DNA of 64,000 nt from Bacteroidaceae bacterium. Lineage in GTDB: Bacteria; Bacteroidota; Bacteroidia; Bacteroidales; Bacteroidaceae. The notes below the pieces were generated by a model. That model worked only from the letters and a program-made list of their open reading frames with translations. It made no database searches and was not told the origin of the DNA. The position numbers and the translations under genes are program-made. Shown piece after piece: positions 40,601 through 56,852 of the stretch. Positions within the stretch are counted from its first letter, which is position 1, and every line of letters begins with the position of its first letter. The stretch spans positions 1 to 64,000 of the forward strand of contig JAFYYH010000003.1 of NCBI GenBank assembly GCA_017557635.1, read 5' to 3'.

Positions 40601-41573
40601 AATACTTGATTTTCAGGTTTTCATCCTTAAGGCCGTGAATAATGACATTATCACCCGCATCAGTGGAATACTTTTCTAGATCAAGAGGCAAATCGACCCA
40701 TATCACTTTCTTTCCTTTCCTGACCTCTTCGGGTTTTGTAAGTATGTATCCGTTCTCGGCCAACCGGTTTTCGGCAAAAGAATTGAGAAAATGCTGGCTT
40801 GAACCGTAATATGCTTTTTTGCGGTTTACCTCAAACGTCTGCGCCTTATGTTTGTTGACATTATCATATGGCTTGTAGTAATAGTAACCCAGTATGTCAC
40901 AATGAGTCTTCGTTCTGTTTTCCAGAACAGTGAATTTCACCAGATCGACATACACTTCATATCCCAATAACGGCAAGTCTATTATCAGCGGTTCATTTGC
41001 CCAGGCGCGGAATACGGTCTCGGTTACTTTTACCGTATCATCATATACCTCCATCTTTTCCACCATATCCGCATCGACGGTACGTATGCTGTACGACCTT
41101 TTGAATGATCGCCGGATTTCATAGGAATCATCTTCGGACCTGTCAAAAAACAGGACATATTCATTCTTTATCTTTGCACGCTTACCCCATCGGTCGTTGC
41201 CCAGGAACATGGTTTTGAAATATTCCATATTCTTTTTGTCTTCTTTGGTTATTTTGCCCGATACCACCACTTCCGGCAATACATCATTAGTAATAAGATT
41301 AATTGTCAGTGTTCCCGGATTTCGGTCAAATTCCAAAGCTTGTGTCTGATATCCCACAAAGCTGAATACAACGGTTGAAGGAAATGAAACGTCTTTCAGT
41401 TCAAATCGGCCGTCATTATCGGTGGCGGTTCCTTGGGTGGTACCGTTCACATAGACAGTAGCCGACGGCAACGGCTCATTCGTCTGACTGTCAAGTACAA
41501 TACCTCTAATGGCGTTCTGTCCGGATAAAACAAACGGAATTAAGGACAAAAAAGCAAACAGAAATCTTTTCAT
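37692..41573 (-). CDS. Large CarboxypepD_reg + MG2-domain cell-envelope protein
   Basis: The 1293-residue protein has a signal peptide (FLFAFLSLIPFVLSGQ). A CarboxypepD_reg-like domain at about 20-100 follows (AIRGIVLDSQTNEPLPSATV, TATDNDGRFELKDVSFP). Then come about 300 residues unique to this copy, with a conserved Tyr-rich stretch (LGYYYYKPYDNVNKHKAQTF). From about residue 420 comes an MG2-like macroglobulin domain (FNSLFPQEKVYLEFDNTAYF, GENIWFKAFVTHAS) and further strands. A plug-like segment (DVKSIIIFDKPMYLQ) and the C-terminal block NPNVITDEEGHARVEFYNNS close it, ending NQTW. From the MG2 part onward it is a paralogue of the three tandem genes at 57-64 kb. No thioester CxEQ motif is seen. 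Function unknown. Confidence 0.75.
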   Translation of the reverse strand: MKRFLFAFLSLIPFVLSGQNAIRGIVLDSQTNEPLPSATVYVNGTTQGTATDNDGRFELKDVSFPSTVVFSFVGYQTQALEFDRNPGTLTINLITNDVLPEVVVSGKITKEDKKNMEYFKTMFLGNDRWGKRAKIKNEYVLFFDRSEDDSYEIRRSFKRSYSIRTVDADMVEKMEVYDDTVKVTETVFRAWANEPLIIDLPLLGYEVYVDLVKFTVLENRTKTHCDILGYYYYKPYDNVNKHKAQTFEVNRKKAYYGSSQHFLNSFAENRLAENGYILTKPEEVRKGKKVIWVDLPLDLEKYSTDAGDNVIIHGLKDENLKIKYYSREDGSPYYTGDKVKGIRFYNESGMTLLKDTCMFLKDGTVMDNNIAFTGELSKKKVASCLPADYCPPGDTGKIRVSRQADYASELIKFADNIHRFNSLFPQEKVYLEFDNTAYFQGENIWFKAFVTHASTLERAPSGVLYVDFLAPTGQLILQQKLKIEAGQADGAIALLDAGTAQTREKQGIRAYPSGFYEIRAYTQNMLDFSPEAIFSRVIPIYTQPKFVGEYDRSHVVDNQDNPLVEKIRGKTQEQKHRVNVTFYPEGGNLVNGLPCRVAFKATGRDAYGVDGALVVTGVSDSIFTVHDGMGSFIIKPDYYRSTTVQFITPDGKKDYYDLPRIDFSGYSMMADMDGDSRMQVNIWRTSDRIGEKTALAVTCRGDVVHFEEIKDIENSRLEIDCSDWPVGVCRVTLYNTDGNILSSRSVFHSSSEQHTPNITVNTDSLDRQSCNKEIIEFQLTDQDGNPFRDRFCLSVRDAADYGVGRTDNLQTNLLLSSDLRGYIHDPAWYLESDDEQHREALNLLTMVQGWERYEWQYMAGLKEFEEKHRIEEGLTMNGWILSYGKREPVSDIGVYASIIPDDDRKLFESFDYQTDSTGYFGFDLSEFYGRGKFTVNLMSTKNNGDSKYERSKRVRFERADRPEPRPFLLQETDLSHNDHRAYDYKPDYTDFGLTEEQRKKLGKMIDEVDIEEKSGKRRFIDYDTFTSFEAEEDAEFELDQGEYTTNLHGYFLEKGLRFIWRKDEGVGYEDPDGLGQNGVDDGHDIIFGGGTEVIPEDVESKHDYLAELKSKELSIFFYIHNQEKLLVHKPFDCPFFIDMIDVKSIIIFDKPMYLQDLITCTPLLLDFHRKHANQGWIAAAYRDIGRRYTLVDIQIKNDNELLFYDEIRNLGRRTTTVKGFTRPVQFYSPEYPDGPIEGNVDSRRTLYWNPNVITDEEGHARVEFYNNSFTRKFTINAAGITATGVPYILNQTW

Positions 41574-42844: not shown

Positions 42845-42875
42845 AGTACCAAACGGAACCGTCCCCAATGGTACT
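42845..42875 (-). repeat. Stop-codon-overlapping hairpin repeat, facing pair, right copy
   Basis: Exact inverted copy of the left element. On the minus strand the ABC ATPase gene stop TAG (42874-42876) opens it. The two copies and the terminator between them form a symmetric 142-bp unit. Confidence 0.85.
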
Positions 42876-43551
42876 ATTCAGGCAGTTCCTTAACGATGCT
42901 GCCGTCAAAGAGGTTGATTATGCGGTTTGCATATGATGCATCATGACGACTGTGAGTAACCATTACGATGGTGGTTCCCTGCTGGTTGAGTTCCTTGAGC
43001 AGGTTCATCACCTCCTGACCGTTCACTGAATCCAGGTTACCGGTGGGCTCATCGGCCAGAATCAGTTTGGGTCCTGCTATAACGGCACGGGCAATAGCCA
43101 CACGCTGCTGCTGACCGCCGCTCAACTGGTTGGGGAAATGTTTCTCGCGATGAGAGATGTTCATGCGCTCCATAACCTCCTCTGCGCGACGGCGACGCTC
43201 CTTGGCAGGAACACCCATGTAAAGCAGAGGGAGTTCGATGTTCTCACGCACGTTGAGTTCATCAATCAGGTTGAAACTCTGGAATACGAATCCTATCACG
43301 CCCTTGCGCAGGTCGGTACGGTGGTTTTCGTCAAGAGTGGCAACCTCGGTTCCCTGAAGTTTGTAACTGCCCTTGGTGGGGTTGTCAAGCAGGCCCAGAA
43401 TGTTGAGCAGGGTTGACTTACCGCAGCCTGAAGGTCCCATAATGGCTACAAACTCACCGTCGGCCACATTGAAAGACACGTCATTGAGTGCCCAGGTCTC
43501 AATCTCCTCGGTACGGAAGATCTTTTGCAGGTTGTTTACTTCAATCATCAT
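42874..43551 (-). CDS. MacB/LolD-type ABC transporter ATPase
   Basis: The 225-residue ATPase has Walker [21 protein letters not shown], the family Q-loop [20 protein letters not shown], the signature [14 protein letters not shown], Walker [14 protein letters not shown] and the switch His in VMVTHSRHD. It is the type that drives FtsX/MacB permeases without a fused ATPase, and three such permeases are encoded upstream on the same strand. It has its own promoter carrying the AGTGTC operator shared with the permeases and the TolC/adaptor operon. It is therefore the likely common motor of this cluster. Its TAG stop opens a dispersed repeat. Confidence 0.92.
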
Positions 43552-43599: not shown

Positions 43600-43631
43600 C
43601 AAAGTTATTCCGATATTGCGGCTGTTTCCAA
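43600..43631 (-). promoter_or_regulatory. Promoter A (ABC ATPase) of the AGTGTC regulon
   Basis: On the minus strand TTG (43629-43631), 21 bases, then TAACTTTG (43600-43607). The operator palindrome ends 34 bases upstream of the TTG. Confidence 0.7.
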
Positions 43632-43665
43632 GCAAAATCTTTAAAAACGTACTTTTTCGCATCAA

Positions 43666-43686
43666 AGTGTCCAATTATTTGACACT
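43666..43686. promoter_or_regulatory. Operator A, AGTGTC-N9-GACACT
   Basis: Perfect 6-base arms with the AT-rich spacer CAATTATTT. It overlaps the stop codon of the adaptor gene (43685-43687) and lies 58 bp from the -7 element of the ATPase promoter. Confidence 0.75.
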
Positions 43687-44935
43687 ACTCAAGAATCACC
43701 TCATCGGCATCGGCTATACGGTCATATCCGGTGGTTATTATCACGTCACCAGGCTCAAGTCCCTCAAGCACCTCATACTGACGCGGATTCTGTCGGCCGA
43801 TGCTTACCGGAACGCGGATTGCCCTGGTTCCCTGCGCATTCAGACGGAACACCCACTGACCATGTGTGTAGTTGTAGAAATTGCCTTTGGGAACCGTCAT
43901 TGACTGCGCCTGTCCGCCCAGTTCTATGCGGGCCTGATAGCTCTTGCCTATGCGGGCGTTGTCAGGGATTGAATCGGTGAACACCAGATAGAGTTCAAAG
44001 GAACCGTTCTTGATCTCGGGAACCGTGCCGCTTACCTCCATGGGATAGGTATTCTTCTCATAGGTGACGGTTGCGGGACAGCCCACCGATATTTTATCTA
44101 TGTAGTATTCATTGATGCTGAGTTTCATACGGAAGGCATCCATGCGTTTTACATCGCCAATGGCAGTGCCCGCTCCCACCCTCAGACCGGGTTCCAATGA
44201 TATTCCGCTCAACTGTCCGTCGGCCGGTGCGGTTATCACCAGATCCTTCAGACGGGCTTCGCTGCGGGCCAGCTGGCGTCGGGCGTCATCCAGTTCATCA
44301 TGCATGGCCTCACGTCTGATGGCATTCAATATGGAGTCCTGACGGCGGCTCTCTATCTCCAGCTGGGTGCTCTTGAGCTTGTAACGGTATTCGTCTTCGG
44401 CCACCTCAAGCTGGGCTTTGCTCTTGAATCCCATCTTATACTCCTCAACATCCAGGGCGTGCTGTTTCTCAAGACGTCCCAGTTCATACTGTGTCTGCAT
44501 GATGGAGCGCTGCAGGGAGATGTCGCGCTGCTGCATCTCTATAATCTGCGTGCGGAAACTGCGGTCCTGCTTGCGCCACTGGTTACGGGCGTCCTGAATG
44601 GTCCGCTCCAGGTCAGGGTCACTCAATATGACTATTGTATCACCCTTATGCACCATCGCACCGTCCTGAGCCACGATCCGCTCCACGAAACCGCCCTCTC
44701 GCGTGTATATCTTGAGAGTCTGGATAGGCTGCAGGGTACCCTCGGCGTTGACATACTCCGAGAACTCGCCCATCACCACGCTGGCCGTCTGAACGCTCTC
44801 ACTGCTGATCCTGATTATACGGGGTCCGGTGGAGACTTTTATGAGCATAGCTATAAGCGCCGTTCCTAACAGACCGGCAACTATGTGTATGCGATATTTT
44901 ACATACCATTTCTTGGGAGGTAACTTAATATCCAT
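43685..44935 (-). CDS. HlyD/MacA-type periplasmic adaptor of an ABC efflux system
   Basis: The 416-residue membrane-fusion protein has one N-terminal membrane anchor (YRIHIVAGLLGTALIAMLIK). A lipoyl-like half follows (LQPIQTLKIYTREGGFVERI, VHKGDTIVIL), then a long coiled coil at about 110-235. The second lipoyl half is DLVITAPADGQLSGISLEPG, and beta-barrel segments (LKIYTREGG, RIGKSYQARIELGGQ) lead to a VLEGLEPGDVIITTGYDRI end. In the family it bridges an inner-membrane ABC permease and TolC. Its start overlaps the TolC gene's 3' end by 11 bases, so both are made from one messenger under operator B. Confidence 0.9.
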   Translation of the reverse strand: MDIKLPPKKWYVKYRIHIVAGLLGTALIAMLIKVSTGPRIIRISSESVQTASVVMGEFSEYVNAEGTLQPIQTLKIYTREGGFVERIVAQDGAMVHKGDTIVILSDPDLERTIQDARNQWRKQDRSFRTQIIEMQQRDISLQRSIMQTQYELGRLEKQHALDVEEYKMGFKSKAQLEVAEDEYRYKLKSTQLEIESRRQDSILNAIRREAMHDELDDARRQLARSEARLKDLVITAPADGQLSGISLEPGLRVGAGTAIGDVKRMDAFRMKLSINEYYIDKISVGCPATVTYEKNTYPMEVSGTVPEIKNGSFELYLVFTDSIPDNARIGKSYQARIELGGQAQSMTVPKGNFYNYTHGQWVFRLNAQGTRAIRVPVSIGRQNPRQYEVLEGLEPGDVIITTGYDRIADADEVILE

Positions 44936-46400
44936 ATTCTATCTGATATTCTAAAAGCGAATCATTCTGAAAATCATATCCTGTCATACTGCGTATGGTG
45001 TAGTAAAGCTGCCACCATGTGCTTAAGGCCGATACGTAACCGCGATAGGCCGAGTCCTTCGAGGTGATGGCCGAATTAAGGTCAAGCACGGTTGAACGTC
45101 CGGTCATATAGAGCTGGCGGGCCACCTCATAACGGTGCTGTGCGGTGAGCATAGTGCGGTGTGCAATCTCCACCCTGCGTTCCTGCAGGTTGAACTGACT
45201 TACCGCACGGGTTACCTGACGGTCAAAGGAGAGTTGCTGCTGCTCCAGACGCATGTTGGTAAGGTCCAGGTTGTTTCTGGCCACGCGGACACGTCCTTTA
45301 CCCTGTCCCCAGTCAAGGATGGGTATGCTGACGGTAAGGCTTATGGACTGCTCATCGTTGAGATTATGCATGCTCTCATTGATATCGTCTCCAGTCTGCG
45401 CCAATCCCAGTCTTACATAGACCGATGCCCTGAGTCCGGCCTGTGACTTGGCACGCGCCAGCGCACTCTCGCTGTTGAGACGGCTCAACTGCATGCTCTC
45501 CATATCGGGATTGTTCTCATATGCCAGTTCCAGCGCTTTCTGCAGCTCCACCTGGAATCCGGGAATGCTGTCGGAGGTAACCACCTCGATACGTGCATCC
45601 GAAGGCAGGTTCAGATAGTTACGCAACTGGTCGGCCGCTTCGTCAAAAGACATCTGTGTGGTGATGATGCTGGTCTCCTCATTCAACTTGTTCAGTTCCA
45701 GTTGCAGCAGCTCATTCTCGGTTATGGTACCTATGTTGTATCGGCCCAGTCCGAAAGCGTACATCGTATCGGCCGCCTCAAGGTTGATGGTCGCAATCTC
45801 CAGTTCCGTCTGGGCCGATGCCAGATTGAAGAAATAGTTGACAGCATTGGCTGCCACCAGTTCCATGGTTTCGGCATACTGCTTGCGAGCCATCTTATAG
45901 TAGAGCGGCTCTGTCTTGCGCTCCCACTTCATGGAGTTGTAACCGGACAGGTCCTGACTGAAGCTGAGTTGCAGCGGCTGGGAATAATACGTAGTGGTAT
46001 GATTCTGGCCAAGCATATCCAGGCGGTTCACTGAACTTGACAGCGATATTGTTCCGCCGGTAAACCACAGGTTCTGGCTCAGGTCCAGGGTGAGATTGTT
46101 GCTCATGCTGTTGGTACGGGCGTACTGCACGCTTCCGTCACCCAGGGTGACGCTGCTGGTGCTGCGGTTGAGCGACGGACGTGTGGAGAGTGAAAGCGAA
46201 GGTCTCATACTGGCCTTGTAACTGCGGTAGCTCCAATAGGCCGACTCGTATGTATTACGGGCCTGAACCGCATTGGGTGATGACTCCTGCGCCATGCGTA
46301 TCACCTCCTCAAGGGTGAGAGTCATGACCTCATCCCCGGCAGCCTGACCAATCAGGCACCAGGCACAACAGATAACCGATATTGCTAATGGTTTACGCAT
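44925..46400 (-). CDS. TolC-family outer-membrane efflux protein
   Basis: The 491-residue protein has a signal peptide (AISVICCAWCLIGQAAG). It then has two OEP repeats of long amphipathic helices: the first from LEEVIRMAQESSPNAVQARN, the second from ALELAYENNPDMESMQLSRL, each with the N-P/A-L-x-x-A pattern of TolC. A strand region in between fits the outer-membrane barrel (YYSQPLQLSFSQDLSGYNSM). It should form the exit duct for the adjacent adaptor and ABC permeases. It heads the tolC-adaptor operon under promoter B, whose -7 element lies 20 bases upstream of the start. Confidence 0.92.
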   Translation of the reverse strand: MRKPLAISVICCAWCLIGQAAGDEVMTLTLEEVIRMAQESSPNAVQARNTYESAYWSYRSYKASMRPSLSLSTRPSLNRSTSSVTLGDGSVQYARTNSMSNNLTLDLSQNLWFTGGTISLSSSVNRLDMLGQNHTTTYYSQPLQLSFSQDLSGYNSMKWERKTEPLYYKMARKQYAETMELVAANAVNYFFNLASAQTELEIATINLEAADTMYAFGLGRYNIGTITENELLQLELNKLNEETSIITTQMSFDEAADQLRNYLNLPSDARIEVVTSDSIPGFQVELQKALELAYENNPDMESMQLSRLNSESALARAKSQAGLRASVYVRLGLAQTGDDINESMHNLNDEQSISLTVSIPILDWGQGKGRVRVARNNLDLTNMRLEQQQLSFDRQVTRAVSQFNLQERRVEIAHRTMLTAQHRYEVARQLYMTGRSTVLDLNSAITSKDSAYRGYVSALSTWWQLYYTIRSMTGYDFQNDSLLEYQIEYGY

Positions 46401-46419
46401 GTTTTCTTGATTTCCAATC

Positions 46420-46451
46420 CAAAATTACCCCCTCACGCTACCACTATACAA
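46420..46451 (-). promoter_or_regulatory. Promoter B (TolC/adaptor operon) of the AGTGTC regulon
   Basis: TTG (46449-46451), 21 bases, then TAATTTTG (46420-46427) on the minus strand. It has the same geometry as promoters A, C and D. Confidence 0.7.
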
Positions 46452-46459
46452 ACAAAAAA

Positions 46460-46481
46460 GGCGAAAACGTACATTTTCGCC
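46460..46481 (-). terminator. Hairpin GGCGAAAA-N6-TTTTCGCC between operator B and promoter B
   Basis: Perfect 8-base arms followed on the minus strand by six T, so it can end transcription from the upstream permease. It also occupies the position of the A/T block conserved in all four regulon promoters, so it may have a double role. Confidence 0.55.
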
Positions 46482-46485
46482 TGAA

Positions 46486-46506
46486 AGTGTCAAATATTTG
46501 GACAAT
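46486..46506. promoter_or_regulatory. Operator B, AGTGTC-N9-GACAAT
   Basis: The left arm is perfect. The right arm keeps GACA but diverges in the last two bases, where it touches a dispersed repeat. Spacer AAATATTTG. It lies 58 bp from the -7 element. Confidence 0.65.
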
Positions 46507-46536
46507 GACACCATAAGGGCAGTCCCTACTGTGTCA
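46506..46536 (-). repeat. Stop-codon-overlapping hairpin repeat upstream of operator B
   Basis: A 31-bp element has arms TGACAC/GTGTCA and the core GGGACTGCCC on the minus strand. The permease TGA stop (46534-46536) is its first triplet. It abuts operator B and seems to have eroded that operator's outer arm. Confidence 0.7.
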
Positions 46537-48855
46537 TTCGCTCTTTATCACATCGGCGGGATTGGTGCGCATGATTACGCGGATCTTGCGGAGGATAGAG
46601 AGTGCTATTACGAGCGCTACGACTATCAGTGTCAACGGCGCAATCCAGACATATGTGCTCCTGAAACCTTCTATATCGGTTGTCTTTCCTATCAGGACCA
46701 TCGATGCCAGAATACCTATGGGAAATGCCAACGCAAGTATTATGCAGTATGGTCTGATAAACATCCCTACTATGTTCATCTGCTTGGCTCCGTTTATCTT
46801 GCGCAATGCAACCTCCTTGCGGCGAATATTGGTTTCGGCCGATATGGACGAAGTAACGCTCAGGATGACCAGCAGCATGCATACAATTCCGCCAATCTGG
46901 AATCCCAAGGCGGTGAAACGTATGTCTTCATCGGAATATTTGGGTATGGAACGGAGTTTGGGTTCCTCAATTGCCGACGGATTCACCTCTTTCCATGTCT
47001 TAAGGACCAGAGCCTCGGCCTCAGACTTGGAAACACCATTGCGGAACCTGACGAAGAAATTGGTTGCAAGACGGTCATCACCCTGATAATCAACGTAACT
47101 GAAGCCTACAGCCACTTCACCGTTAATGACGACGGGGTTACCGCACATAAGCTCATCAAACACTCCCACAAACTGGACAGGAATGATATCGGAACCGTTC
47201 ATCTTTCCTATGCTGTTCATATCCACATTGTTCTTAAGGTAGTTTTCATAAGTCTTACGGTCAACCAGGTATCCTTTTGAAGGCGGTGTGGGTGTCAGCC
47301 ACTCTACCGGAATGTTGAAGAACTCGAAATACCTTAAGTCATAGCCTGAAAAGAGCATCTGCTGCTGGAAATACCTGTCGCCGTTACCCACAATGTATTC
47401 ATTGAATTCTATTCCGTACCAGCCGCCTCCTGACGCAACCACCTCTTCAACCTGAGGCAGACGGCTTATCTCATGGTAGAATTCCTTCTGGGTATCGGAA
47501 CCGGAATGGCCCTCTTCGGTCTCCACGAAATAGGTCCTGTCACTCACTGATTTCGGAAGGGGATTGTATGGTCTTGGCGCAGTCATTGCAATGACAAGAA
47601 CCGATGCCAATGCAAATACGGCCACTGTTGACTCAATGCATATTACGATGTATTTCAGGAGTTTGCTTTCACGCTGATAAGCAACTATCCTGTTGCGCAT
47701 CACCCGGTTCTGACCATAGACTGCAAAACGGCAGACTGCAGCACAAACCAATCCGACTCCTATTATGGCCCACGTGTTCAATTTAAGCAGGTCAGCCAGA
47801 TGGAAATACCGGTCACCCATATAGACGGCCTGATTGAGCCAGGTGCAGATATGGAATGACAGATAGCATGCAATTGCATATGAGCCGATGAGTATGACGA
47901 TAACCTCGGCCAACAGCATAAGCGTGAGGCTTTCCTGTCTGGCTCCTAAGCTGTAACGGATGATGTTGGCCCTTCCACGCTGTTTCAGGACCATGATCAT
48001 GTGCTTGAGGAAGTTGGTCACTGCCACCAGAAGCACTATTATGCTGAGCAGGCTCAACAGCATGTTTTTTATCTTTCTGTCAGAATTCACTCCGAACCTG
48101 GTCAGTTGCATTACTCCGCTCTTGGAGAAGTCCTTAAGTTCATATCGGCTGATGATGGCATTGATTTCATCCACGCTGACACCCTCCTTGAGAACTACAT
48201 CTATATCGTAAAGAGGCAGGATGGTGGGCATCTTTGAGGTGTGGAAATAGACATCGGTACCAATGCTGCGGCTCCATCGGTCATCACGTACCACATTTAC
48301 GATCTGGAGCGTATCGAACATCCGGACTTCACTGGTTACAATGCACTGGCTGATGTCCTTGTCAAAGCCCATACGCTTGAGCAGCGCCTCGGACACTACT
48401 ATCTCATTCTTGTTCTGAGGCATACGGTCTCCGTACATAAGTGTGAGGTTCCAATATCTGAAGAAATCACCTTCCACGTACATGCCGTCCATCTTGCCCA
48501 TACAGTAGACTTTGTGGTCATCCTCAAAAGTCAGGGTTTCAGAGATACTGCCGGATATTGACACCATTTCCACCTGAGGCATTCCCCTAAGGGTATCATA
48601 GTATTGACTGTAAGGCATTTGGCTACGGTATTGAGCCGGGGCATCGGTAATGATGTTTGCGGGGCGCTGCATGTAAACAAAATAGCTGCGATTGTGACCG
48701 GGAAGCCTGTTTTCAAAGAAATCATCATAATTGATGCCGTACAGCAGCACCGAGAACATGGCGGTTCCGATGGCAAGGCAGCAGACGCTCAGTATGGTAT
48801 AAACCCAGTTGTTACGTATGTTACGCAGCGCGGTTTTAAGATAATGGAGTATCAT
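46534..48855 (-). CDS. FtsX/MacB-type ABC transporter permease
   Basis: The start is ATG 48855 (MILHYLKTALRNIRNNW), because the longer frame begins inside the promoter; the protein is 773 residues. It has the MacB_PCD plan twice: an N-terminal helix, a large periplasmic domain and FtsX segments of three helices. The first FtsX segment follows KIKNMLLSLLSIIVLLVAVT and the second QIGGIVCMLLVILSVTSSIS. The conserved cytoplasmic loop INIRRKEVALRKINGAKQMN and the end NPADVIKSE are shared with the other two permeases. The ATPase encoded at 42.9 kb is its probable motor. Substrate unknown. It has its own promoter C. Confidence 0.9.
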   Translation of the reverse strand: MILHYLKTALRNIRNNWVYTILSVCCLAIGTAMFSVLLYGINYDDFFENRLPGHNRSYFVYMQRPANIITDAPAQYRSQMPYSQYYDTLRGMPQVEMVSISGSISETLTFEDDHKVYCMGKMDGMYVEGDFFRYWNLTLMYGDRMPQNKNEIVVSEALLKRMGFDKDISQCIVTSEVRMFDTLQIVNVVRDDRWSRSIGTDVYFHTSKMPTILPLYDIDVVLKEGVSVDEINAIISRYELKDFSKSGVMQLTRFGVNSDRKIKNMLLSLLSIIVLLVAVTNFLKHMIMVLKQRGRANIIRYSLGARQESLTLMLLAEVIVILIGSYAIACYLSFHICTWLNQAVYMGDRYFHLADLLKLNTWAIIGVGLVCAAVCRFAVYGQNRVMRNRIVAYQRESKLLKYIVICIESTVAVFALASVLVIAMTAPRPYNPLPKSVSDRTYFVETEEGHSGSDTQKEFYHEISRLPQVEEVVASGGGWYGIEFNEYIVGNGDRYFQQQMLFSGYDLRYFEFFNIPVEWLTPTPPSKGYLVDRKTYENYLKNNVDMNSIGKMNGSDIIPVQFVGVFDELMCGNPVVINGEVAVGFSYVDYQGDDRLATNFFVRFRNGVSKSEAEALVLKTWKEVNPSAIEEPKLRSIPKYSDEDIRFTALGFQIGGIVCMLLVILSVTSSISAETNIRRKEVALRKINGAKQMNIVGMFIRPYCIILALAFPIGILASMVLIGKTTDIEGFRSTYVWIAPLTLIVVALVIALSILRKIRVIMRTNPADVIKSE

Positions 48856-48894
48856 ATTGCAAGGATCTATGGAGTCTGTTTTTGATTTACACTC

Positions 48895-48926
48895 CAAAAT
48901 TATTCCCGGACATGGTCACTATCCAA
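48895..48926 (-). promoter_or_regulatory. Promoter C (permease) of the AGTGTC regulon
   Basis: TTG (48924-48926), 21 bases, then TAATTTTG (48895-48902). The -7 element covers the apparent ATG at 48897, which is why the permease must start at 48855. Confidence 0.7.
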
Positions 48927-48960
48927 AGAAAAAAAGTGAAAAACCACTTTTTCGCTCAAA

Positions 48961-48981
48961 AGTGTCTAATTATTTGACACC
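48961..48981. promoter_or_regulatory. Operator C, AGTGTC-N9-GACACC
   Basis: Spacer TAATTATTT, located 58 bp from the -7 element. The operator encodes the last codons and the TAG stop (48966-48968) of the zeta-like gene. Confidence 0.75.
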
Positions 48982-49559
48982 GCCTTAACCCACTCAGGCA
49001 ATTCATCAGTGTAACGTTTGGCTATTTTGCCATCGGCCGTTCTCAGAATCAGTCGCGGAGCGGCGTTTTCAGTTGAGTTGTCATAGAGGTAAACCCTGTC
49101 CGCAATCTTTATGGCCTCCGATAGGTTCTTAAGTGAACTGTAATATCTTGAAATGGTCTTGGAAATGGGCACCTCATGTCCACCGTTCAAGTACCGTTGC
49201 GCAATGCGGTTGATGTTTATAAGCGGCGACTCAGTGCATACATAGAATATCCTGATGAAAAAACCGGCATCCTTGGCCTTACGGAGGAATTCCATTTTCT
49301 CGGCCGATGAAAACACCGTTTCAAACACAAAATCAGTCCCGTTTGAAAGACATTCGTAACGCTGTTCAGTTGCAGTCTTGGCGGCCTTGAGAACAGCATC
49401 GGCCGAATTCCAGTCACCATATCTCTCTAGAGCGATATTGTCGGGGTTGATGTAAAGACTGTCGGCTCCCCATTCATTCTTGAGCAGTTGCTCAGTCGTA
49501 GTGGTCTTTCCGGAACCGTTCGGCCCTGCCACAATACACATTACAGGTTTCTTTTTCAT
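48966..49559 (-). CDS. Zeta-toxin-family P-loop kinase
   Basis: The 197-residue protein has Walker A CIVAGPNGSGKTTTTEQLL at residues 8-26, the segment LYINPDNIALERYGDWNSAD (Asp of the zeta substrate site) and the FVFETVFSSAEKMEFLRKAK block typical of zeta/UMP-kinase-like toxins. The Arg-rich lid is VPISKTISRYYSSLKNLSEA. Zeta toxins phosphorylate UDP-N-acetylglucosamine and stop wall synthesis; many chromosomal relatives of this short type are less well understood. It follows the XRE gene by six bases, forming a toxin-antitoxin pair. The pair sits between two permease units, and its stop codon lies in operator C. Confidence 0.82.
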   Translation of the reverse strand: MKKKPVMCIVAGPNGSGKTTTTEQLLKNEWGADSLYINPDNIALERYGDWNSADAVLKAAKTATEQRYECLSNGTDFVFETVFSSAEKMEFLRKAKDAGFFIRIFYVCTESPLININRIAQRYLNGGHEVPISKTISRYYSSLKNLSEAIKIADRVYLYDNSTENAAPRLILRTADGKIAKRYTDELPEWVKAVSNN

Positions 49560-49565
49560 AGTATC

Positions 49566-49928
49566 TTATTTTGAATCCCTTACCTCATCAAGTTTTTTTC
49601 GCAGCACCTCATGGGCGTTGTATGAAGATGTTATGGCCGATTCGCAAACCTGATGCATGATCTCCTCAAGCATATACTCCTGAGGTTCTTCCAATGATGA
49701 CAGTCTGTATTTCCGGATGTCCTGCCTTATCACGGCCTCATCATCCACTCCGCATTTAGTACCAAAGTAGGCCAGAACCTGATTGACCTTGTCCATCCTG
49801 AGGCTTTGCTTACCCTGCTCCAGTTCACGCAAGAACCTCAAACCCACACCGGCCTTTGCGGCCAGTTCCGGCTGCGTGAGATGCTGTTCCTTGCGGCATC
49901 TCTTTATAAAAGTACTTATTTGTTCCAT
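49566..49928 (-). CDS. XRE-family antitoxin/repressor of the zeta pair
   Basis: I start at ATG 49928 (120 residues), because the longer frame upstream runs antisense-like through the permease end. Residues 8-60 are a classic helix-turn-helix (FIKRCRKEQHLTQPELAAKA, GVGLRFLRELEQGKQSLRMD), as in HipB/Y4mF-type regulators. The remaining 60 residues are a charged helical tail that probably binds the toxin (EEIMHQVCESAITSSYNAHE). The promoter upstream contains a near-perfect palindrome at the transcription start, as expected for autorepression. Confidence 0.85.
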   Translation of the reverse strand: MEQISTFIKRCRKEQHLTQPELAAKAGVGLRFLRELEQGKQSLRMDKVNQVLAYFGTKCGVDDEAVIRQDIRKYRLSSLEEPQEYMLEEIMHQVCESAITSSYNAHEVLRKKLDEVRDSK

Positions 49929-49929
49929 A

Positions 49930-49955
49930 TTTACACCCTTTCGGGTGCAAATATA
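49930..49955 (-). promoter_or_regulatory. Promoter and operator of the XRE/zeta pair
   Basis: TATATTTG (49948-49955) is followed by the palindrome TTTGCACCC-GAAA-GGGTGTAAA (49930-49951, one mismatch), which overlaps the end of the -7 element and runs to two bases before ATG 49928. An XRE dimer bound here would block transcription. Confidence 0.65.
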
Positions 49956-49990
49956 TAAAATATAATCCGCAATAATAAACCTTACGGGTA

Positions 49991-52537
49991 TTATTCGCTC
50001 TTTATCACATCGGCGGGATTCTCGCGGGCGGTTTTGAGTACGCGGTGCCCTATGGTGAGGCAGATTACCAGTGACATTGTCGTGAAGATTACCGCATATA
50101 TCCACCAACTGATGGTGGCCTGTTGCTGGAACTGTTGCTGCCATACTTTGATTACGGGATAGCCAACAATGAATCCCAAAGCCGATGATACCAGGAACAG
50201 GATTCCGTAGTTGCGGACAAAAATGGAGAGAATATCGGTCACCCTTGCCCCATGAACCTTGCGTACTGCAATCTCGCGTCTCTTTTCCTGACAGGATAGT
50301 GCTATTATGGAGTATATTCCGGCCAGTGATATTATCAGGCACAGGATGCCCAGGACCTCAATCAATGCAGTGAGATGGCGGTCATTTTCAAGTGTCTGAT
50401 AAAAATAATCTTCGGTAAACTTGACTTCATAATCAAGTTCAGTGGGTTTAAGTATCTCGTCAATTTTCCGTTTCAGTTCTTTCCTGGTTCCGTGCCGGTA
50501 TGTCACGGTGATAAGTGCATGGGACCATCCCAATGACTCTCCGATAAGCATGCGGTTATTGGGACCGCAAAGTATATAACTCTCCGGATCCATACTGAAC
50601 TCACACAGATACAGGTCACTTATTATGGCAATTATCCGGAAGGTATTTGTCACTTCACTTTTTTCTCCGCCTTTAAGAGTAGGCTTTCCGTTTTCAAAGG
50701 TGAAGATATACGGAGCCGTTACTGTCCTTCGGATGGTCAAAGTGGGTTCATCGGCTATATCTCCAAGTCCCAATTCACGCTGCAGGTTACGTGTAATTAC
50801 AATCTCATCATCCATTAGAGGCCTGTCAGGGATGGTTCCGTCAAGCACATTCAGGGAGAGCAGTTTCAAATATGCAGGGTCTAAGACAGCCAGAATGTTT
50901 GTCCTTATATCGTCATTGCCGTTAATCCAGATATTACGATTCCTGAATATCTCATACACTATTCGATAAATCTCCTCAACGCCACCTATTCCATGATATA
51001 CGTCTGTTACAAACGGAATGCTCTCAAGTTTACCCGTAATGCCGAACTGGCCGTCAATACGGTTCATAAAATCCTCACCGTTAGCCTCTTTATGAAAGTT
51101 AGGATGATTTTCAGGACTATATTCCCCGTAGCCTTGGAAACCTTCCCATATGTAATTATCCGGATCCGGAATGGTAATTACCGCAATGTCATTCACCCGG
51201 ATGCCCCAATCGTTGTTTCTCAGGAACCTGAACTGATGCAGCATTGAAAATACCACGAACAGGAACAGCACGCTCACAAAGATCTGGATGCCGATGCTTA
51301 TCTGCCGGAAGGTCTTGCCGGTCTTTTTTACCAGTGTGCTCTGCATGGTACGGCGTCTTACCAGTCCTACGGATAATATGCTGACAGCCATGGAAAAAGC
51401 AAATGCAATGGCTATAACCAGGATGCTGCCCCACATAACATACCCTGCGGTCATCTCAATATCAGCCAGCTCACGGAATTTGCCTTTCAGGAATACAATG
51501 GCAATGAATCCCAATACCGCTGATGCGCCCAGAATAACCAATGACTCTATGGCCATCATATTGAGAACTGAGCGTCCCGTTGCTCCGTTGACTATCCTGA
51601 GTGCCATCTCATGCTCCCTGTTCCTGACACGGTTCAGGTTAAAGAGCAGGTAATTGACAAGAGCGCAAAGCGTAAGGAGCAGGCTGGCCCATGCAAACAT
51701 ACGGGCATGTTCATAGCCTATATACATTTGGCCGGCCGTGACCGACTTATGCATTTGGGTTATGGGAAGGAATCTGATTTTTATGTCATCAAGGAATGAC
51801 GGTTGTTTATTGATCACTTCAGTGAAAGAACCGGATAACTGTTCAATATCTGTTCCACCGTGAAGTTTCATAAGGCCGTTGGGATATCTGTCCTCATCGG
51901 AATAAAAGACAACATTCTGCTGAATGACCGGCGGATTCCCGTCTTCATCAAGAACCGGCAGTGCTATGACACCAACCGGAATTACCGGGTAATAATGCAT
52001 GCACAGGATATCGAACCTGAAATACGACGGCCCACTGAACGGAGCCACTACGGCACTGACGGTTTTTCCGTAGCACTCCTGGCCTATGGGATTATGAAAC
52101 GGGTATTTCCTCTTTGCATAGGCGCTGGACAATGCCACATAATTGGTATCTTTAAGGAAACTCCAGTCTCCTTCAATAAGAGTGAAATCAAAGTAGTTGA
52201 AAAACGTAGTATCCGCTATCAGTTCCTTTGCATCCCCATGTTCTCTCCAATTGAACTTGGCAATTGATTCAACCTCTTTGAACTCCTGCAACGGATCTGT
52301 CATTTCAGGGCTGAACCTTGCTATATATGGCTCAACTGAATACGGAGTAGTCTCTGACAGCGTAAAAATCCGGTCTGCGTCTTTGTGGAATGAATCAAAA
52401 GACTCTTCAAAATGAATCCACAGAGCGGAAAAACTAAGGCAAACAAGGCCTGCCGCAAGACCGATGCAACTTACAGTGTTCTGCAGTGCATATTTGCGTA
52501 TGTTCCTTACGGCAATCTTAAGGTAGTGTACAAACAT
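49991..52537 (-). CDS. FtsX/MacB-type ABC transporter permease
   Basis: The start is ATG 52537 (MFVHYLKIAVRNIRKYALQN), giving 848 residues. It has the double MacB_PCD/FtsX layout with loops NRVRNREHEMALRIVNGATG and CQEKRREIAVRKVHGARVTD before the last three helices, and the shared end NPADVIKSE. The periplasmic domains are diverged from those of the other two permeases. It starts 32 bases after its sister permease and is expected to be co-transcribed from promoter D. Whether the two pair with each other or act separately is not visible. Confidence 0.9.
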   Translation of the reverse strand: MFVHYLKIAVRNIRKYALQNTVSCIGLAAGLVCLSFSALWIHFEESFDSFHKDADRIFTLSETTPYSVEPYIARFSPEMTDPLQEFKEVESIAKFNWREHGDAKELIADTTFFNYFDFTLIEGDWSFLKDTNYVALSSAYAKRKYPFHNPIGQECYGKTVSAVVAPFSGPSYFRFDILCMHYYPVIPVGVIALPVLDEDGNPPVIQQNVVFYSDEDRYPNGLMKLHGGTDIEQLSGSFTEVINKQPSFLDDIKIRFLPITQMHKSVTAGQMYIGYEHARMFAWASLLLTLCALVNYLLFNLNRVRNREHEMALRIVNGATGRSVLNMMAIESLVILGASAVLGFIAIVFLKGKFRELADIEMTAGYVMWGSILVIAIAFAFSMAVSILSVGLVRRRTMQSTLVKKTGKTFRQISIGIQIFVSVLFLFVVFSMLHQFRFLRNNDWGIRVNDIAVITIPDPDNYIWEGFQGYGEYSPENHPNFHKEANGEDFMNRIDGQFGITGKLESIPFVTDVYHGIGGVEEIYRIVYEIFRNRNIWINGNDDIRTNILAVLDPAYLKLLSLNVLDGTIPDRPLMDDEIVITRNLQRELGLGDIADEPTLTIRRTVTAPYIFTFENGKPTLKGGEKSEVTNTFRIIAIISDLYLCEFSMDPESYILCGPNNRMLIGESLGWSHALITVTYRHGTRKELKRKIDEILKPTELDYEVKFTEDYFYQTLENDRHLTALIEVLGILCLIISLAGIYSIIALSCQEKRREIAVRKVHGARVTDILSIFVRNYGILFLVSSALGFIVGYPVIKVWQQQFQQQATISWWIYAVIFTTMSLVICLTIGHRVLKTARENPADVIKSE

Positions 52538-52569
52538 ATTTCGGACATTTTTAATTATGCATTTCCATA

Positions 52570-55071
52570 TTATTCTGTTTTGACGACATCGGCCGGATTG
52601 ATGCGCATGATACGGCGTACTTTCCAGAATGTGGAGAGGGTCATTACAAAGGCTATGAAAAACAATACTATTGCACTGTGCCAAGGTCGTATCCAGATCC
52701 ACATGAAAGAGCCTACTGAATGTCGAATCAGTGTGGCAATGTACCAGCCGGCCGCAAAGGCAACAATCAGAATGATTATGTACGGACGGACAAAAAGCCT
52801 TGCAATATCAATGGCTTTTGCTCCGTGAACTTTACGTAGGGCAACCTCCTTGCGTCGGCGTCCGGTATCGGTCGATATGGCCGATGTAATGCTAAGTACA
52901 ACCATAAACAGGCCTGCCGCGGCTGCCATAAACACAAGAATCATATATATTCGGGTGTTTCCTGAGGAGTCAAGCCACTTGTTGCCTATCTGACTGATCA
53001 TTTCAGGAGAGTATATGTCAACGTATTCGGCACAGATGGCTTCTATTTCATGTATGGCCTCTGCAATGACTGTACCGGGTTTGAATCTCAAGTACAGATG
53101 GGTATAGGGGTGATCTTCATCAGACAGAAGTATGTATCTGTTTTTATCAATGGGGTCACTCAGATCACCGAATCTGGTTTTGAATACTCCGGCAACTGTA
53201 AACCGGTCAAAAACGGGATAGTAATCCTCTATATTTTCTGATTTAGGCAGAAGACCTTGCATGGCCTTCTCCTCCAGTTTATTTTCAAACAGTTGATAAA
53301 AAGGTTCAGGCTGATTTCCGGTTGACAAAATGTAGTCATACATTGTTTCAGAGAGATAGACCTTGTTCTCACCGGGAACGGCATCATGATATTCCACCGG
53401 TATCTTGAAGAATCTGAAATAGCTTGAATCAGAGATGATTGCATATTGTATATTATTTCCTTCAGCACCAATTGTATTGAGACTGACTACCATCATGCTC
53501 CACTCTTCATATTTTATAATCTGCGGATAACCGGTCATTACAGCATCTTCAATCATCGGGAGGTTACGTATCCTATTGGCCAGCACCTCCCTGTTCTGGT
53601 CAAATTTGGGACTTGACAAATCAACCATGTATGTCCTTTTGAGTTCACCGCGTGATAAAGGATTATACAGTCTTTGTCGCCCGGATAAATAACCCAGAGT
53701 ACAAAAGCAGGCACAGACCGCTACTGATACCTCCAATCCTATAAGGATATTTCTGAGTACGTGTCTTTCCCTGCGTGTAAGTCCGGGATTAAGTGATGTG
53801 GCCGGCTTATAGAACAGTACGATGGCAGCCAGTATCAATGCGCTCAGTAATGTTACAAACAGTAAGACCTGAACCTCCAGTATGATGACATCCGGCAGAT
53901 GAAAGTACACCCTGTCAACCTGTGCACTATAAAGATAGTGTGGATACAATCCTGTATGATTGACAAAACCTGCAACATATATGGTTAATATGGCCGATAT
54001 TGCCATAACCGGAGCTATCATGACAATGACCTGCATCATCTGTCCCCAGAACAGGCCACTTTTTCCGGCACCAAGGCTAAGACGTATCCTGTTGTTCTGT
54101 TTCTGGTTGAAAAATGAATTGGTTAAACTTGAAAGGAAACATACGGCTCCTGTAAGCAGCAATATGACTGAAAGCAGATGTTGCCAGTTTTTCGGCATCC
54201 GTGACAGGGAATCATTCCTCAGATAAAGTGAACGGATATGCTTGGAGTACGGGACACCGTTATAGAACTGATAGGTCTCTAAATCCACCTTCTCTATCTT
54301 ATTCAATGACAGTCTTGCGTTAACCTTGTCAACATCGGCTCCCTCTCTGAGAACAACGGTTACATTATCATATTTTATGCAGTTGAAATAGATTTCAGCC
54401 TCAACATTCCGGCTCCATTTGTCATCCTTAATGACGTTGACTATATACAGAGGCTCGGTTCCTATCAGGCTGCTGGAATATAACAGTGACATATCCTGGT
54501 TTTCAGCAGGAACCATCGTCAGGGAAATGCCTGACAAATCATTACCAAGAGAATGCTTCCGCATGAATGATTCTGTAACCACAACCTCATTAGGGTATTC
54601 CGGCAACCTGTCTCCGTACAGCAGACTCATCCCTTTGAATCTGAAGAATGCCGGAGATACGTTCAGAGCTCTCTCTGAAATCTCCGAAACACGGTTATGC
54701 GCATCTGTGAGATAGAGTCTGGCTGTTCTGGATCCGATCATCTGGTAGTTTTCACCGAATGTTCCGACCACGAACTCAAAATCAGGGTCCTCAAACAATT
54801 CCGGATTCTCTAGCCAGAATGATTCATATACTACGGTTGTGTCGGTTCTGGCAATTTCTCCATTATCAAAAACTCCTGTATGGGCAATCAATGCTCTATA
54901 GCTGCGACTCTCAAAAGATTCTGAAGTCTTGAAGAAACGATCATGGTCAGTGACATAAAAAATCATTGCAAACAGGATGGTACCCATAATCAGGGCCAGC
55001 ATTGAGGTCAGATTGAATCCCCATTTGTTTTTGAGATTCCTTAGGGCAATCTTGAGATAATGAAGGAACAT
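52570..55071 (-). CDS. FtsX/MacB-type ABC transporter permease
   Basis: The 833-residue protein starts MFLHYLKIALRNLKNKWGFN, the same amphipathic entry helix as the other permeases. It continues with a large periplasmic domain, FtsX helices after MPKNWQHLLSVILLLTGAVC, a second periplasmic domain, and TGRRRKEVALRKVHGAKAID with the end NPADVVKTE. It is the first gene of promoter unit D, divergent from the response regulator gene with 187 bp between the starts. The palindromic operator and the -33/-7 promoter lie in that gap. Confidence 0.9.
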   Translation of the reverse strand: MFLHYLKIALRNLKNKWGFNLTSMLALIMGTILFAMIFYVTDHDRFFKTSESFESRSYRALIAHTGVFDNGEIARTDTTVVYESFWLENPELFEDPDFEFVVGTFGENYQMIGSRTARLYLTDAHNRVSEISERALNVSPAFFRFKGMSLLYGDRLPEYPNEVVVTESFMRKHSLGNDLSGISLTMVPAENQDMSLLYSSSLIGTEPLYIVNVIKDDKWSRNVEAEIYFNCIKYDNVTVVLREGADVDKVNARLSLNKIEKVDLETYQFYNGVPYSKHIRSLYLRNDSLSRMPKNWQHLLSVILLLTGAVCFLSSLTNSFFNQKQNNRIRLSLGAGKSGLFWGQMMQVIVMIAPVMAISAILTIYVAGFVNHTGLYPHYLYSAQVDRVYFHLPDVIILEVQVLLFVTLLSALILAAIVLFYKPATSLNPGLTRRERHVLRNILIGLEVSVAVCACFCTLGYLSGRQRLYNPLSRGELKRTYMVDLSSPKFDQNREVLANRIRNLPMIEDAVMTGYPQIIKYEEWSMMVVSLNTIGAEGNNIQYAIISDSSYFRFFKIPVEYHDAVPGENKVYLSETMYDYILSTGNQPEPFYQLFENKLEEKAMQGLLPKSENIEDYYPVFDRFTVAGVFKTRFGDLSDPIDKNRYILLSDEDHPYTHLYLRFKPGTVIAEAIHEIEAICAEYVDIYSPEMISQIGNKWLDSSGNTRIYMILVFMAAAAGLFMVVLSITSAISTDTGRRRKEVALRKVHGAKAIDIARLFVRPYIIILIVAFAAGWYIATLIRHSVGSFMWIWIRPWHSAIVLFFIAFVMTLSTFWKVRRIMRINPADVVKTE

Positions 55072-55098
55072 AATAAGGACTTTGTTTTAATGCAAATC

Positions 55099-55130
55099 CA
55101 AAAATAACCTCTCTCAACTTCAATTTCCAA
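55099..55130 (-). promoter_or_regulatory. Promoter D (two permeases) of the AGTGTC regulon
   Basis: TTG (55128-55130), 21 bases, then TATTTTTG (55099-55106) on the minus strand. Confidence 0.7.
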
Positions 55131-55163
55131 TAAAAAACTTCAAAAACGCTTTTTTCATCTGAA

Positions 55164-55184
55164 AGTGTCCAAAATTTTGACACT
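55164..55184. promoter_or_regulatory. Operator D, AGTGTC-N9-GACACT
   Basis: Perfect arms, spacer CAAAATTTT, 57 bp from the permease -7 element. It is also 58 bp upstream of the -7 element of the divergent response regulator gene, so it could control both directions. Confidence 0.75.
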
Positions 55185-55242
55185 CTCCGGTTAGGGAATA
55201 AAATTTCTCCAGTCAGGCCGCAAAAAACACGGACTAATTGGC

Positions 55243-55250
55243 TACTTTTG
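55243..55250 (+). promoter_or_regulatory. -7 promoter element of the response regulator gene
   Basis: TACTTTTG ends eight bases before ATG 55259 and overlaps the earlier in-frame start at 55238, so the shorter product is preferred. No clear -33 TTG is visible, which fits an activated promoter. Confidence 0.5.
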
Positions 55251-55258
55251 AAACCGTT

Positions 55259-55846
55259 ATGAAACAGTCCAAAATTCTTGTAATTGATGATAATACCGCA
55301 GTGCTTACCACATTGCGGATGGTTCTGAAAAGCAGCTTCAGCACTGTGGTTGCCGTAGCCGATCCAAAACTCATTCCCGCCCTTATAAGCAAGGGTGATG
55401 TCGATGCCGTTCTGCTGGATATGAATTTCGGCAGTGACCGGCTGGACGGACAGGACGGACTGTTCTGGCTGGACCGCATCATGAACCGCAGTAATCTGGA
55501 GAATCCTCCTGCCGTGGTGATGATAACCGCTTTCGGCGATATCAACCTGGCAGTTCAGTCACTCAAGAAGGGGGCATCGGACTTTATCCAGAAACCTTGG
55601 GACAACAACGACCTTATTGCTAAACTGACAGAGGCGATAGACAAAAGGGACGCACGTGCGCAGGAGGCATCGGCCCAGGCCGTGAAGGATGAACCCGAGC
55701 CCGCGTCAACACTTGAGGAGATGGAGATCCAGACTATCAGACGTGTGCTTGAGCAGTCAGACAGAAACCTTTCGGTTGCAGCCGATAAACTTGGCGTGAG
55801 CCGCCAGACCCTATACAACAAGATGAAACGATATGGCATTGAGTAG
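55259..55846 (+). CDS. Response regulator: receiver plus Fis-type HTH, no AAA+ domain
   Basis: The 195-residue protein has a complete receiver: Asp10/Asp11 in VIDDN, phospho-Asp54 in VLLDMNFGSD, Thr in MITAFGD and Lys in FIQKPW. A linker of about 25 Ala/Glu/Pro-rich residues leads to a Fis-type helix-turn-helix at the end ([38 protein letters not shown]). NtrC-type regulators would have a sigma-54-activating AAA+ ATPase in between; it is absent here, as in the RegA/ActR group. It is co-transcribed with the kinase gene, overlapping by 14 bases. It is the obvious candidate for binding the AGTGTC palindromes next door. Confidence 0.9.
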   Translation: MKQSKILVIDDNTAVLTTLRMVLKSSFSTVVAVADPKLIPALISKGDVDAVLLDMNFGSDRLDGQDGLFWLDRIMNRSNLENPPAVVMITAFGDINLAVQSLKKGASDFIQKPWDNNDLIAKLTEAIDKRDARAQEASAQAVKDEPEPASTLEEMEIQTIRRVLEQSDRNLSVAADKLGVSRQTLYNKMKRYGIE

Positions 55847-56852
55847 CCGACATTACACCTGGAACGTAGTCATTACGGTATTGCTGGTAACCGCCATGCC
55901 TGCCGTAACTGTGCTGCTTGCCCTGATCGCAAGCCGTACGGAGACTATGGGTGCAAAGACGCTCATTACCTCAGTAGGTGCAATAGTCACCGCAACAATT
56001 GCCATAATCTCAATAGTCAGGCTGATACGTCTTATCCGATATCCGGTAAACCAGACCGAACTCATGGCCAGGGCGGTGGTCAACAAGGACTTCATGCTCC
56101 ATATACCCAAGACCGATGACCTTTTGCTCGGCCGTGCATCACAGGATATGAACCGTATCCTGGACACATACCGCAAGGACCAGAACGAGCTTGAAACCCG
56201 TAAGAACTACTATGACCGGATACTCAGGGTGATGACGCATGAACTGCGCAATACCGTAACGCCCATCGTGTCGCTGACCGACTGGATGGTCAGTAACCCC
56301 GACGCCCAGTCTGAAGAGGAGCGGCAGGAGGCCATCGGGATAATAAACACCCAGGCGCACAACGTGTGCAATTTCCTGGAATCATACCGCCAGCTTACCG
56401 TGCTTGAAAAGCCCGATATGGCCGACATTCCTGCAACGACACTGTTCCGCAATATCCAGACGTTGATAAAGGCGGAGAAGGGTGCCGGGCGCGTACGCTT
56501 TGAGACAGCAGGCGATGTTGTACTCCATGTGGATTCCGGTCTGCTGTCACTTGCACTCATCAACATTATCAGGAACGCCATCCAGGCAACCGAGGGCGTT
56601 GAGGACGGCCAGGTCACAGTTCTGGCGTCAATGCCCGGAGGCAAGCCTCTGATAACCGTTACCAATAACGGACCTGAGATCCCGCAGGCCATAATAGAGC
56701 AGATATTCATGCCGTTCTACTCCACCAAAAAGAAACAGAGCGGAAGCGGCATCGGCCTTGCTCTTTCGCGTCAGATCATGCAACTGCATGAGGGTACGCT
56801 TACCTGCTCATCACACTATCCGTTCACTACGTTCACTTTCCAGTTTAAATGA
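55833..56852 (+). CDS. Sensor histidine kinase
   Basis: The 339-residue protein has two close N-terminal membrane helices (about 10-33 and 42-65) with almost no periplasmic loop, so it may sense a membrane-borne signal or a partner permease. A HAMP-like linker is followed by the H box with His136 ([20 protein letters not shown]), N box ([15 protein letters not shown]), a G1-like VTNNGPEIP and G2 [18 protein letters not shown]. In the FtsX-permease context it probably responds to envelope stress or antimicrobial compounds, which is inference. Its TGA stop opens a dispersed repeat. Confidence 0.92.

Follow-up and report, generated by a model that had tools for sequence, protein, structure and literature searches.

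How are the parts of one efflux machine, transcribed from separate promoters, placed under a single switch? The question is raised by a cluster of ATP-binding cassette (ABC) efflux genes in a 64,000-nucleotide stretch of a Bacteroidaceae bacterium genome (GenBank assembly GCA_017557635.1, contig JAFYYH010000003.1, positions 1 to 64,000; hereafter the window), in which palindromic operators stand at a nearly fixed distance from four promoters and one of them is shared with the gene of a response regulator. We consider it likely that this regulator is a member of the NtrC family which, having lost its ATPase while keeping its operator, acts in a class-I-like manner at primary-sigma promoters. 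Loss of the ATPase, the operators, their spacing, the content of the regulon and the difference in promoter class can be read from sequence comparison, as set out below. The features concerned are as follows.

43666..43686, minus strand: operator A, an exact palindrome before the ATPase gene, overlapping the last 2 bases of the adaptor gene
43629..43631, minus strand: −33 TTG of promoter A
43600..43607, minus strand: −7 element of promoter A, TAACTTTG, 58 base pairs (bp) from operator A
42874..43551, minus strand: ABC ATPase (PF00005; top NCBIfam match DarD, below its cut-off)
46486..46506, minus strand: operator B, one mismatch to AGTGTC-N9-GACACT, before tolC-hlyD
46420..46427, minus strand: −7 element of promoter B, TAATTTTG, 58 bp from operator B (TTG at 46449-46451)
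44925..46400, minus strand: TolC-type outer membrane channel (PF02321)
43685..44935, minus strand: HlyD-type adaptor
48961..48981, minus strand: operator C, with a single mismatch, upstream of a permease gene and overlapping the 3' end of a zeta-toxin-like gene
48895..48902, minus strand: −7 element of promoter C, TAATTTTG, 58 bp from operator C (TTG at 48924-48926)
46534..48897, minus strand: FtsX-type permease behind promoter C; the listed open reading frame starts at a TTG overlapping the −7 element, and translation more probably begins at the ATG of codon 15
55164..55184, no strand assigned: operator D, an exact palindrome common to the divergent promoters of the permease pair and the regulator
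55099..55106, minus strand: −7 element of promoter D, TATTTTTG, 57 bp from operator D (TTG at 55128-55130)
55243..55250, plus strand: −7 element of the regulator promoter, TACTTTTG, 58 bp from operator D, with no −33 TTG
52570..55071, minus strand: FtsX-type permease, first of the pair
49991..52702, minus strand: second FtsX-type permease of the pair (the listed frame has an uncertain start codon)
55259..55846, plus strand: response regulator, with receiver (PF00072) and Fis-type helix-turn-helix (HTH; PF02954) domains and no AAA+ domain
55833..56852, plus strand: sensor histidine kinase

One operator at the promoters of an efflux system

A preliminary description of this DNA gave the site as AGTGTC-N9-GACACT with a nine-base AT-rich spacer. 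The palindrome is exact at A and D but carries one mismatch each at B and C, and the AT-rich bases, although there, are partly dyad rather than mere spacer, so that the site is better written as the 17-bp dyad TGTCHAAnnnTTDGACA. The geometry stood as described, with gaps of 58, 58, 58 and 57 bp to TAnnTTTG and a TTG 21 bp before the −7 element at all four promoters, and we confirmed that these drive the ATPase, the TolC/adaptor, a permease and a permease pair. Operator D does lie 58 bp from the regulator's own −7 element, but the −33 TTG is missing on that side. With −7 TAnnTTTG and TTTG-like −33 elements, the promoters agree with the sigma-ABfr consensus, of which the −7 element is part (excerpt of PMC7366714).

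The bare hexamer pattern with two or three mismatches was rejected as a genome-wide test, being at or under control: the window holds 19 matches against 23.8 expected (up to three mismatches), and in the whole source genome 59 matches were found where the reversed pattern gave 95 (up to two). The fuller dyad TGTCnAAnnnTTnGACA is enriched in the same genome, with six sites and none in the reversed control; all six have a −7 element at gap 57 or 58, and all stand at efflux or regulator promoters. The composite of operator and TAnnTTTG occurs eight times, seven times at the six sites, D being counted on each strand, and once at an unrelated place. Random occurrence, which the preliminary description had proposed to check, is thus not what the source genome displays.

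Two of the six sites lie outside the window (C19:163002 in locus L003 and C20:235359 in locus L004), each 57 bp from TACTTTTG with the TTG in place, and each precedes an orphan FtsX permease on another contig (L003:3529-5913 and L004:2898-5321). No relative of the window's ATPase was found in the 11-12 kb fetched around each; since these permeases share the operator without such a neighbour, a single ATPase gene may work for five permeases or more. Six sites of the same geometry therefore point to one regulon comprising one ATPase, one TolC/adaptor, five permeases (three of them in the window) and the regulator. Three further near-matches that we read in this genome (L005, L007 and L008) have no −7 element at that spacing.

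The arrangement recurs among 37 genomes of the source genome's GTDB genus. The composite was matched in 24 of the 37 (control, 4 matches in 3 genomes), with an AT-rich core, judged by eye, in 19. Across 40 loci, 71 of 72 operators have TAnnTTTG at 57-59 bp on a side (gap 57, 13 occurrences; 58, 58; 59, 7; ten strays), and the gene next to promoters at these gaps encodes a permease, TolC, ATPase or regulator in 74 of 78 cases. GACG-type operators, which fall outside selection by the composite, lie at gap 57 or 58 in 16 of 16 cases. Loci picked by operator or regulator gave 29 promoter-facing sites, one of them also a composite match; 19 have an exact −7 element at 56-59 bp and the remaining 10 a one-mismatch element at 57-58. 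As a position control, a near-exact −7 element was found at 56-59 bp for 95 of 120 CTTT-facing operator sides, and in any other 4-bp window for at most 21 of 120 (mean 4.3). At least two operators among the loci picked by operator or regulator lie upstream of lipoprotein-like genes (L187:7213-8790 and L188:6726-7928), and the regulon may on that account extend past the pump.

Descent of the regulator and its promoters

Above cut-off, the window regulator matches PF00072 and PF02954 only; PF00158, characteristic of NtrC-type sigma54 enhancer-binding proteins, is absent from it and present in the three long relatives scanned. A first search for relatives outside the genus returned as top matches open reading frames of 440-494 amino acids, NtrC-type, to whose two ends the receiver and HTH align. 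There are also nine forms of 260-278 residues, seven of which (266-272 residues; L121, L123, L124, L128, L130, L133 and L135) were examined. Their approximately 73 residues between receiver and HTH correspond to the AAA+ lid of the long forms (hhalign probability 98.35; at most 0.46 in 20 column shuffles). The intermediate of Parabacteroides goldsteinii reaches the Pfam cut-off for AAA_lid_14 (PF25601) and contains no Sigma54_activat (PF00158), and in L121 the lid lies below the Pfam cut-off. The survival of lid-only intermediates indicates that the AAA+ ATPase core was deleted, and with NtrC-type proteins as closest relatives and AAA+ remnants in its kin, the regulator belongs to the NtrC lineage by descent, a point absent from the preliminary description. 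At the place of the GAFTGA loop, three of four aligned long forms read GAFTDA and one GSFTDA.

Trees of the regulator, and of regulator plus kinase, divide the ATPase-less proteins into two groups or more, with long forms between them. An approximately unbiased (AU) test does not reject a single group (p 0.395 and 0.344), so that the trees favour two independent losses without proving them. We give even weight to either answer when asking whether two Bacteroidales lineages lost the NtrC-type ATPase independently, kept the operator and converged on same-face primary-sigma promoters; if they did, remote sigma54 activation was exchanged twice for rigid class-I activation.

The class of promoter differs between long and short regulators. 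Counting sigma54-like sites (score of at least 9 of 11) alongside TAnnTTYG and the reversed sequence, we found sigma54-like sites in 13 of 92 efflux upstream regions of the 43 long-regulator loci (reversed, 1), with TAnnTTYG in 10 (reversed, 9). Short-regulator loci of the genus had TAnnTTYG in 57 of 102 regions (reversed, 3) and no excess of GG-N10-GC, the sigma54 target promoter (3 of 102; reversed, 6), and the other short-regulator loci had TAnnTTYG in 52 of 154 regions (reversed, 5), with 9 sigma54-like sites (reversed, 6). Four loci (L049, L051, L225 and L209) carry the operator, in its exact form or one mismatch away from it, together with a sigma54-like promoter; the operators of L049 are tandem, TGGCACGATTTTGGCA, and L209 comes from a sister genus in the same family.

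Helical spacing and proposed mode of action

Scanning named genomes for the regulator gave 503 relatives, of which the best 80 loci were used; besides the genus these cover Prevotella, other Prevotellaceae, Muribaculaceae, Mediterranea and Parabacteroides. In most of the loci L118-L178, from several families, the dyad adjoins the regulator, and these 61 loci together hold 100 operators with at most one mismatch (none in reversed sequence). Their gap to TAnnTT[TC]G is quantised, at 47 (46 occurrences), 58/59 (13), 68-70 (50), 81/82 (8) and 92 (3), besides 30 (11) and a few others; because tandem operators stand 23 bp apart, some of these classes are linked. For a phase test we took the nearest operator per promoter and dropped promoters more than 80% identical, leaving 83 in the Prevotella/Mediterranea group, and the 72 of these at gaps 40-75 gave R 0.93 at 11.3 bp, a value reached in none of 5000 uniform simulations. 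A spacing quantised at about 11.3 bp is as expected for activation from one face of the helix, and the fixed helical phase proposed in the preliminary description gains support from it. Operators at gap 47 often precede TolC genes (4 annotated, and 23 of 34 otherwise unannotated genes judged by eye).

With −7 taken as the centre of the −7 element, as the name implies, the operator centres would fall near −69, −80, −91 and −103. Class I activators such as CRP need whole-turn placement, and whole-turn spacing upstream of −35/−33 is seen in the Prevotella/Mediterranea group, the window's genus keeping essentially one spacing. Between operator and −33 runs a conserved block of A- and T-tracts that the preliminary description does not mention, cTTTt.GG...aAAA...cGaTTTtg...TTTTT.cTTGGA, in the region where an alpha-subunit UP element is expected.

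The mechanism that we propose takes the response regulator at 55259-55846 as the putative cognate regulator of operators A to D and of the sites outside the window. Its ancestor, on this reading, was a sigma54-dependent activator of the NtrC type, whose AAA+ core was deleted while receiver, HTH and TGTC-type dyad operator were retained. Its phosphorylated dimer would sit about 80 bp upstream of the start, as judged from the −7 position, on one helix face relative to the sigma-ABfr polymerase, where direct activation of primary-sigma polymerase would replace remote remodelling of sigma54 polymerase, with contact probably made through the alpha C-terminal domain on the A/T-tract block. Predicted targets are the one shared ATPase, the TolC/adaptor, the regulator itself and FtsX permease genes, five in all, of which three lie in the window and two on other contigs. 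Binding, phosphorylation, the direction of control as activation, the alpha contact and the sharing of the ATPase are steps that we infer from the arrangement of sites and genes.

The same regulator might instead repress the efflux promoters and release them on a signal, an improbable reading for which the case lies in one Prevotella subgroup, where gap-30 operators at the regulator's own promoter stand about 1.5 turns from those at 47; being out of phase with the main classes, they suggest repression there. At the efflux promoters, however, the operators lie upstream of −33 with no overlap of the core promoter, and helical phase is kept at 47, 58, 69/70 and 82 bp, which a simple repressor would not need.

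Less probable again is binding of the palindrome by a different regulator encoded elsewhere, with the response regulator a bystander. The dependence of operators on the regulator, which the preliminary description had implied, is supported: at least one operator occurs in all 21 genus genomes with the regulator, against 4 of the 16 in which none was found (Fisher 1e-6), or in 7 of 16 if three matches with a GC spacer are counted (Fisher 9e-5). The count of regulators includes partial copies, cut by a contig end in G013 and split over two frames in G020 (G020:C21:44421-44992), where several operators are kept and either decay or an assembly error is the cause. As to the four genomes that favour a bystander, the contig of G017 stops inside the adjacent kinase gene; G033 jointly lacks the regulator, its kinase and a near-identical ATPase, and its contigs appear to begin about where these would lie; and G014 and G016 are fragmentary assemblies, completeness in G033, G014 and G016 being 80-83%.

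A sample of 295 Bacteroidales genomes, with operators counted by eye, bears on the same point. Matches to the composite lie close to the noise level there, in 43 of 295 genomes with a reversed control similarly frequent, and two of its matches (G141 and G247) are on a contig that also carries an ATPase-less regulator. Seven genomes with the ATPase-less regulator hold 6, 3, 0, 5, 13, 2 and 1 operators, and two or more are found in 5 of these 7 as against 22 of the 288 others (maximum 4; Fisher 8e-5). The bystander reading can draw on five genomes (G081, G072, G077, G093 and G325) with 3-4 operators and no ATPase-less regulator. Searching these and a sixth operator-bearing genome without it, G171, again for relatives, we found full-length forms of 447-470 residues in G325, G077 and G171, the last with two operators directly 5' of the gene, and weaker matches only in G081, G072 and G093. 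Against a bystander stand these associations in genus and order, the recurrence of operators adjoining the regulator across several families, and the same operator in several loci of long-form relatives.

Least probable is that the constant spacing is a mere relic of recent duplication of a promoter-permease cassette, for although the permeases are paralogous and some promoters alike, spacer identity has a median of 53% (56 promoters), the spacing varies with a standard deviation of 0.48 bp against 36-37 bp for the distance from −7 to start (74 promoters with a −7 element at 50-66), TolC and ATPase promoters have the same spacing, and relatives differ by whole turns.

Activation by an ATPase-less NtrC-family regulator thus remains our preferred reading. 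The operators without a detected regulator and the gap-30 sites weigh against it, and so do the following observations. The genus spacing figure is partly selected, because most of the 40 loci were picked by the composite, and shared ancestry of the promoter-permease units accounts for part of the constancy. On the Parabacteroides side beyond the genus, 11 promoters gave R 0.78 with the best period, 10.0 bp, at the limit of those tried and 10 of 5000 simulations as high, which by itself shows little. G114 has the ATPase-less regulator but lacks any exact operator genome-wide, G291 holds 3 operators where its own reversed control gives 4, and at the regulator locus L119 none was found, one mismatch being allowed. 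The sigma54 side is carried by a minority of regions, because most long-form upstream regions show neither class of promoter at the score threshold applied, and only some long-form loci have the same operator. Within the genus, the long paralogues of L058, L059 and L061 go with a different dyad, GTGTAAA..TTTACAC, and full-consensus sigma54 sites. Finally, RpoN is kept in 36 of the 37 genus genomes, so that loss of sigma54, which had been expected in the genus, is ruled out and was not the driver of the change.

The loci L058, L059 and L061 represent a second full-length NtrC-type regulator with its efflux cluster, where the dyads are tandem, GTGTAAAG..CTTTACAC, and the promoters read TGGCAC-N5-TTGCA. 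Within the window's own cluster lie a zeta-toxin-like gene (48966-49559, minus strand) and a HipB-like HTH gene (about 49566-49955, minus strand). The zeta gene has counterparts of 94-95% identity in G005, G029 and G033 and of 86% in G012, and since the flanking permeases are far more diverged, recent transfer of this gene into the cluster is suggested. Three large, mutually related, secreted-looking proteins flank the cluster (37692-41573, 57038-59740 and 59743-62376), and no TGTC-type operator with up to one mismatch precedes their genes in the window.

Relation to known systems

In a search of a collection of open-access literature we recognised no description of the regulator, the operator or the ATPase loss in Bacteroidota; the same holds for the combination of a wholly deleted ATPase core, surviving lid intermediates, a retained operator and a promoter switch quantised by turns. 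The surviving intermediates show a route from sigma54/ATPase activation to ordinary polymerase with the DNA target unchanged, and the price of leaving the ATPase mode seems to be a fixed helical spacing. This suggests the idea that remote activation by an ATPase frees spacing and activation by contact fixes it, for which natural pairs are available. The rule also makes regulons readable in a large, little-studied group of gut and rumen Bacteroidales, and for an efflux system with several permeases it offers a candidate regulator and its operator, predicting which distant orphan permeases belong to that system.

Regulators consisting of receiver and Fis-type HTH without AAA+ are known from the ActR/PrrA/RegA family, and the window regulator has the same composition. 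It scores 54.9 bits, and the Prevotella-type form 71.9, on NF033791, the model for that family (cut-off 250), and it differs in that its kin are Bacteroidales NtrC-type proteins and its targets efflux rather than redox genes. Class I activators of the CRP type likewise occupy positions one helical turn apart, with a different protein family and polymerase.

NtrC proteins independent of sigma54 are already known, and NtrC of Rhodobacter capsulatus, NtrC of Caulobacter and VspR of Vibrio cholerae resemble the present case in lineage and in sigma54-independent control at primary-sigma promoters (excerpt of PMC10274813). According to that excerpt those proteins lack the GAFTGA loop only, whereas here the core of the ATPase has been lost, intermediates with only the lid persist and spacing follows the helical turn. 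FtsX permeases of Bacteroidia, the same permease family, have been predicted to be under sigma54 control (excerpt of PMC12316311), which is probably the ancestral arrangement; here sigma-ABfr promoters replace sigma54-like ones. The pump itself shares its component families with MacAB-TolC, darobactin-type DarBCD exporters and ADOP permeases, none of its components reaching the curated cut-offs for DarB, DarC, DarD or ADOP, and, unlike in those systems, a single ATPase gene appears to work for several permease genes that are transcribed separately.

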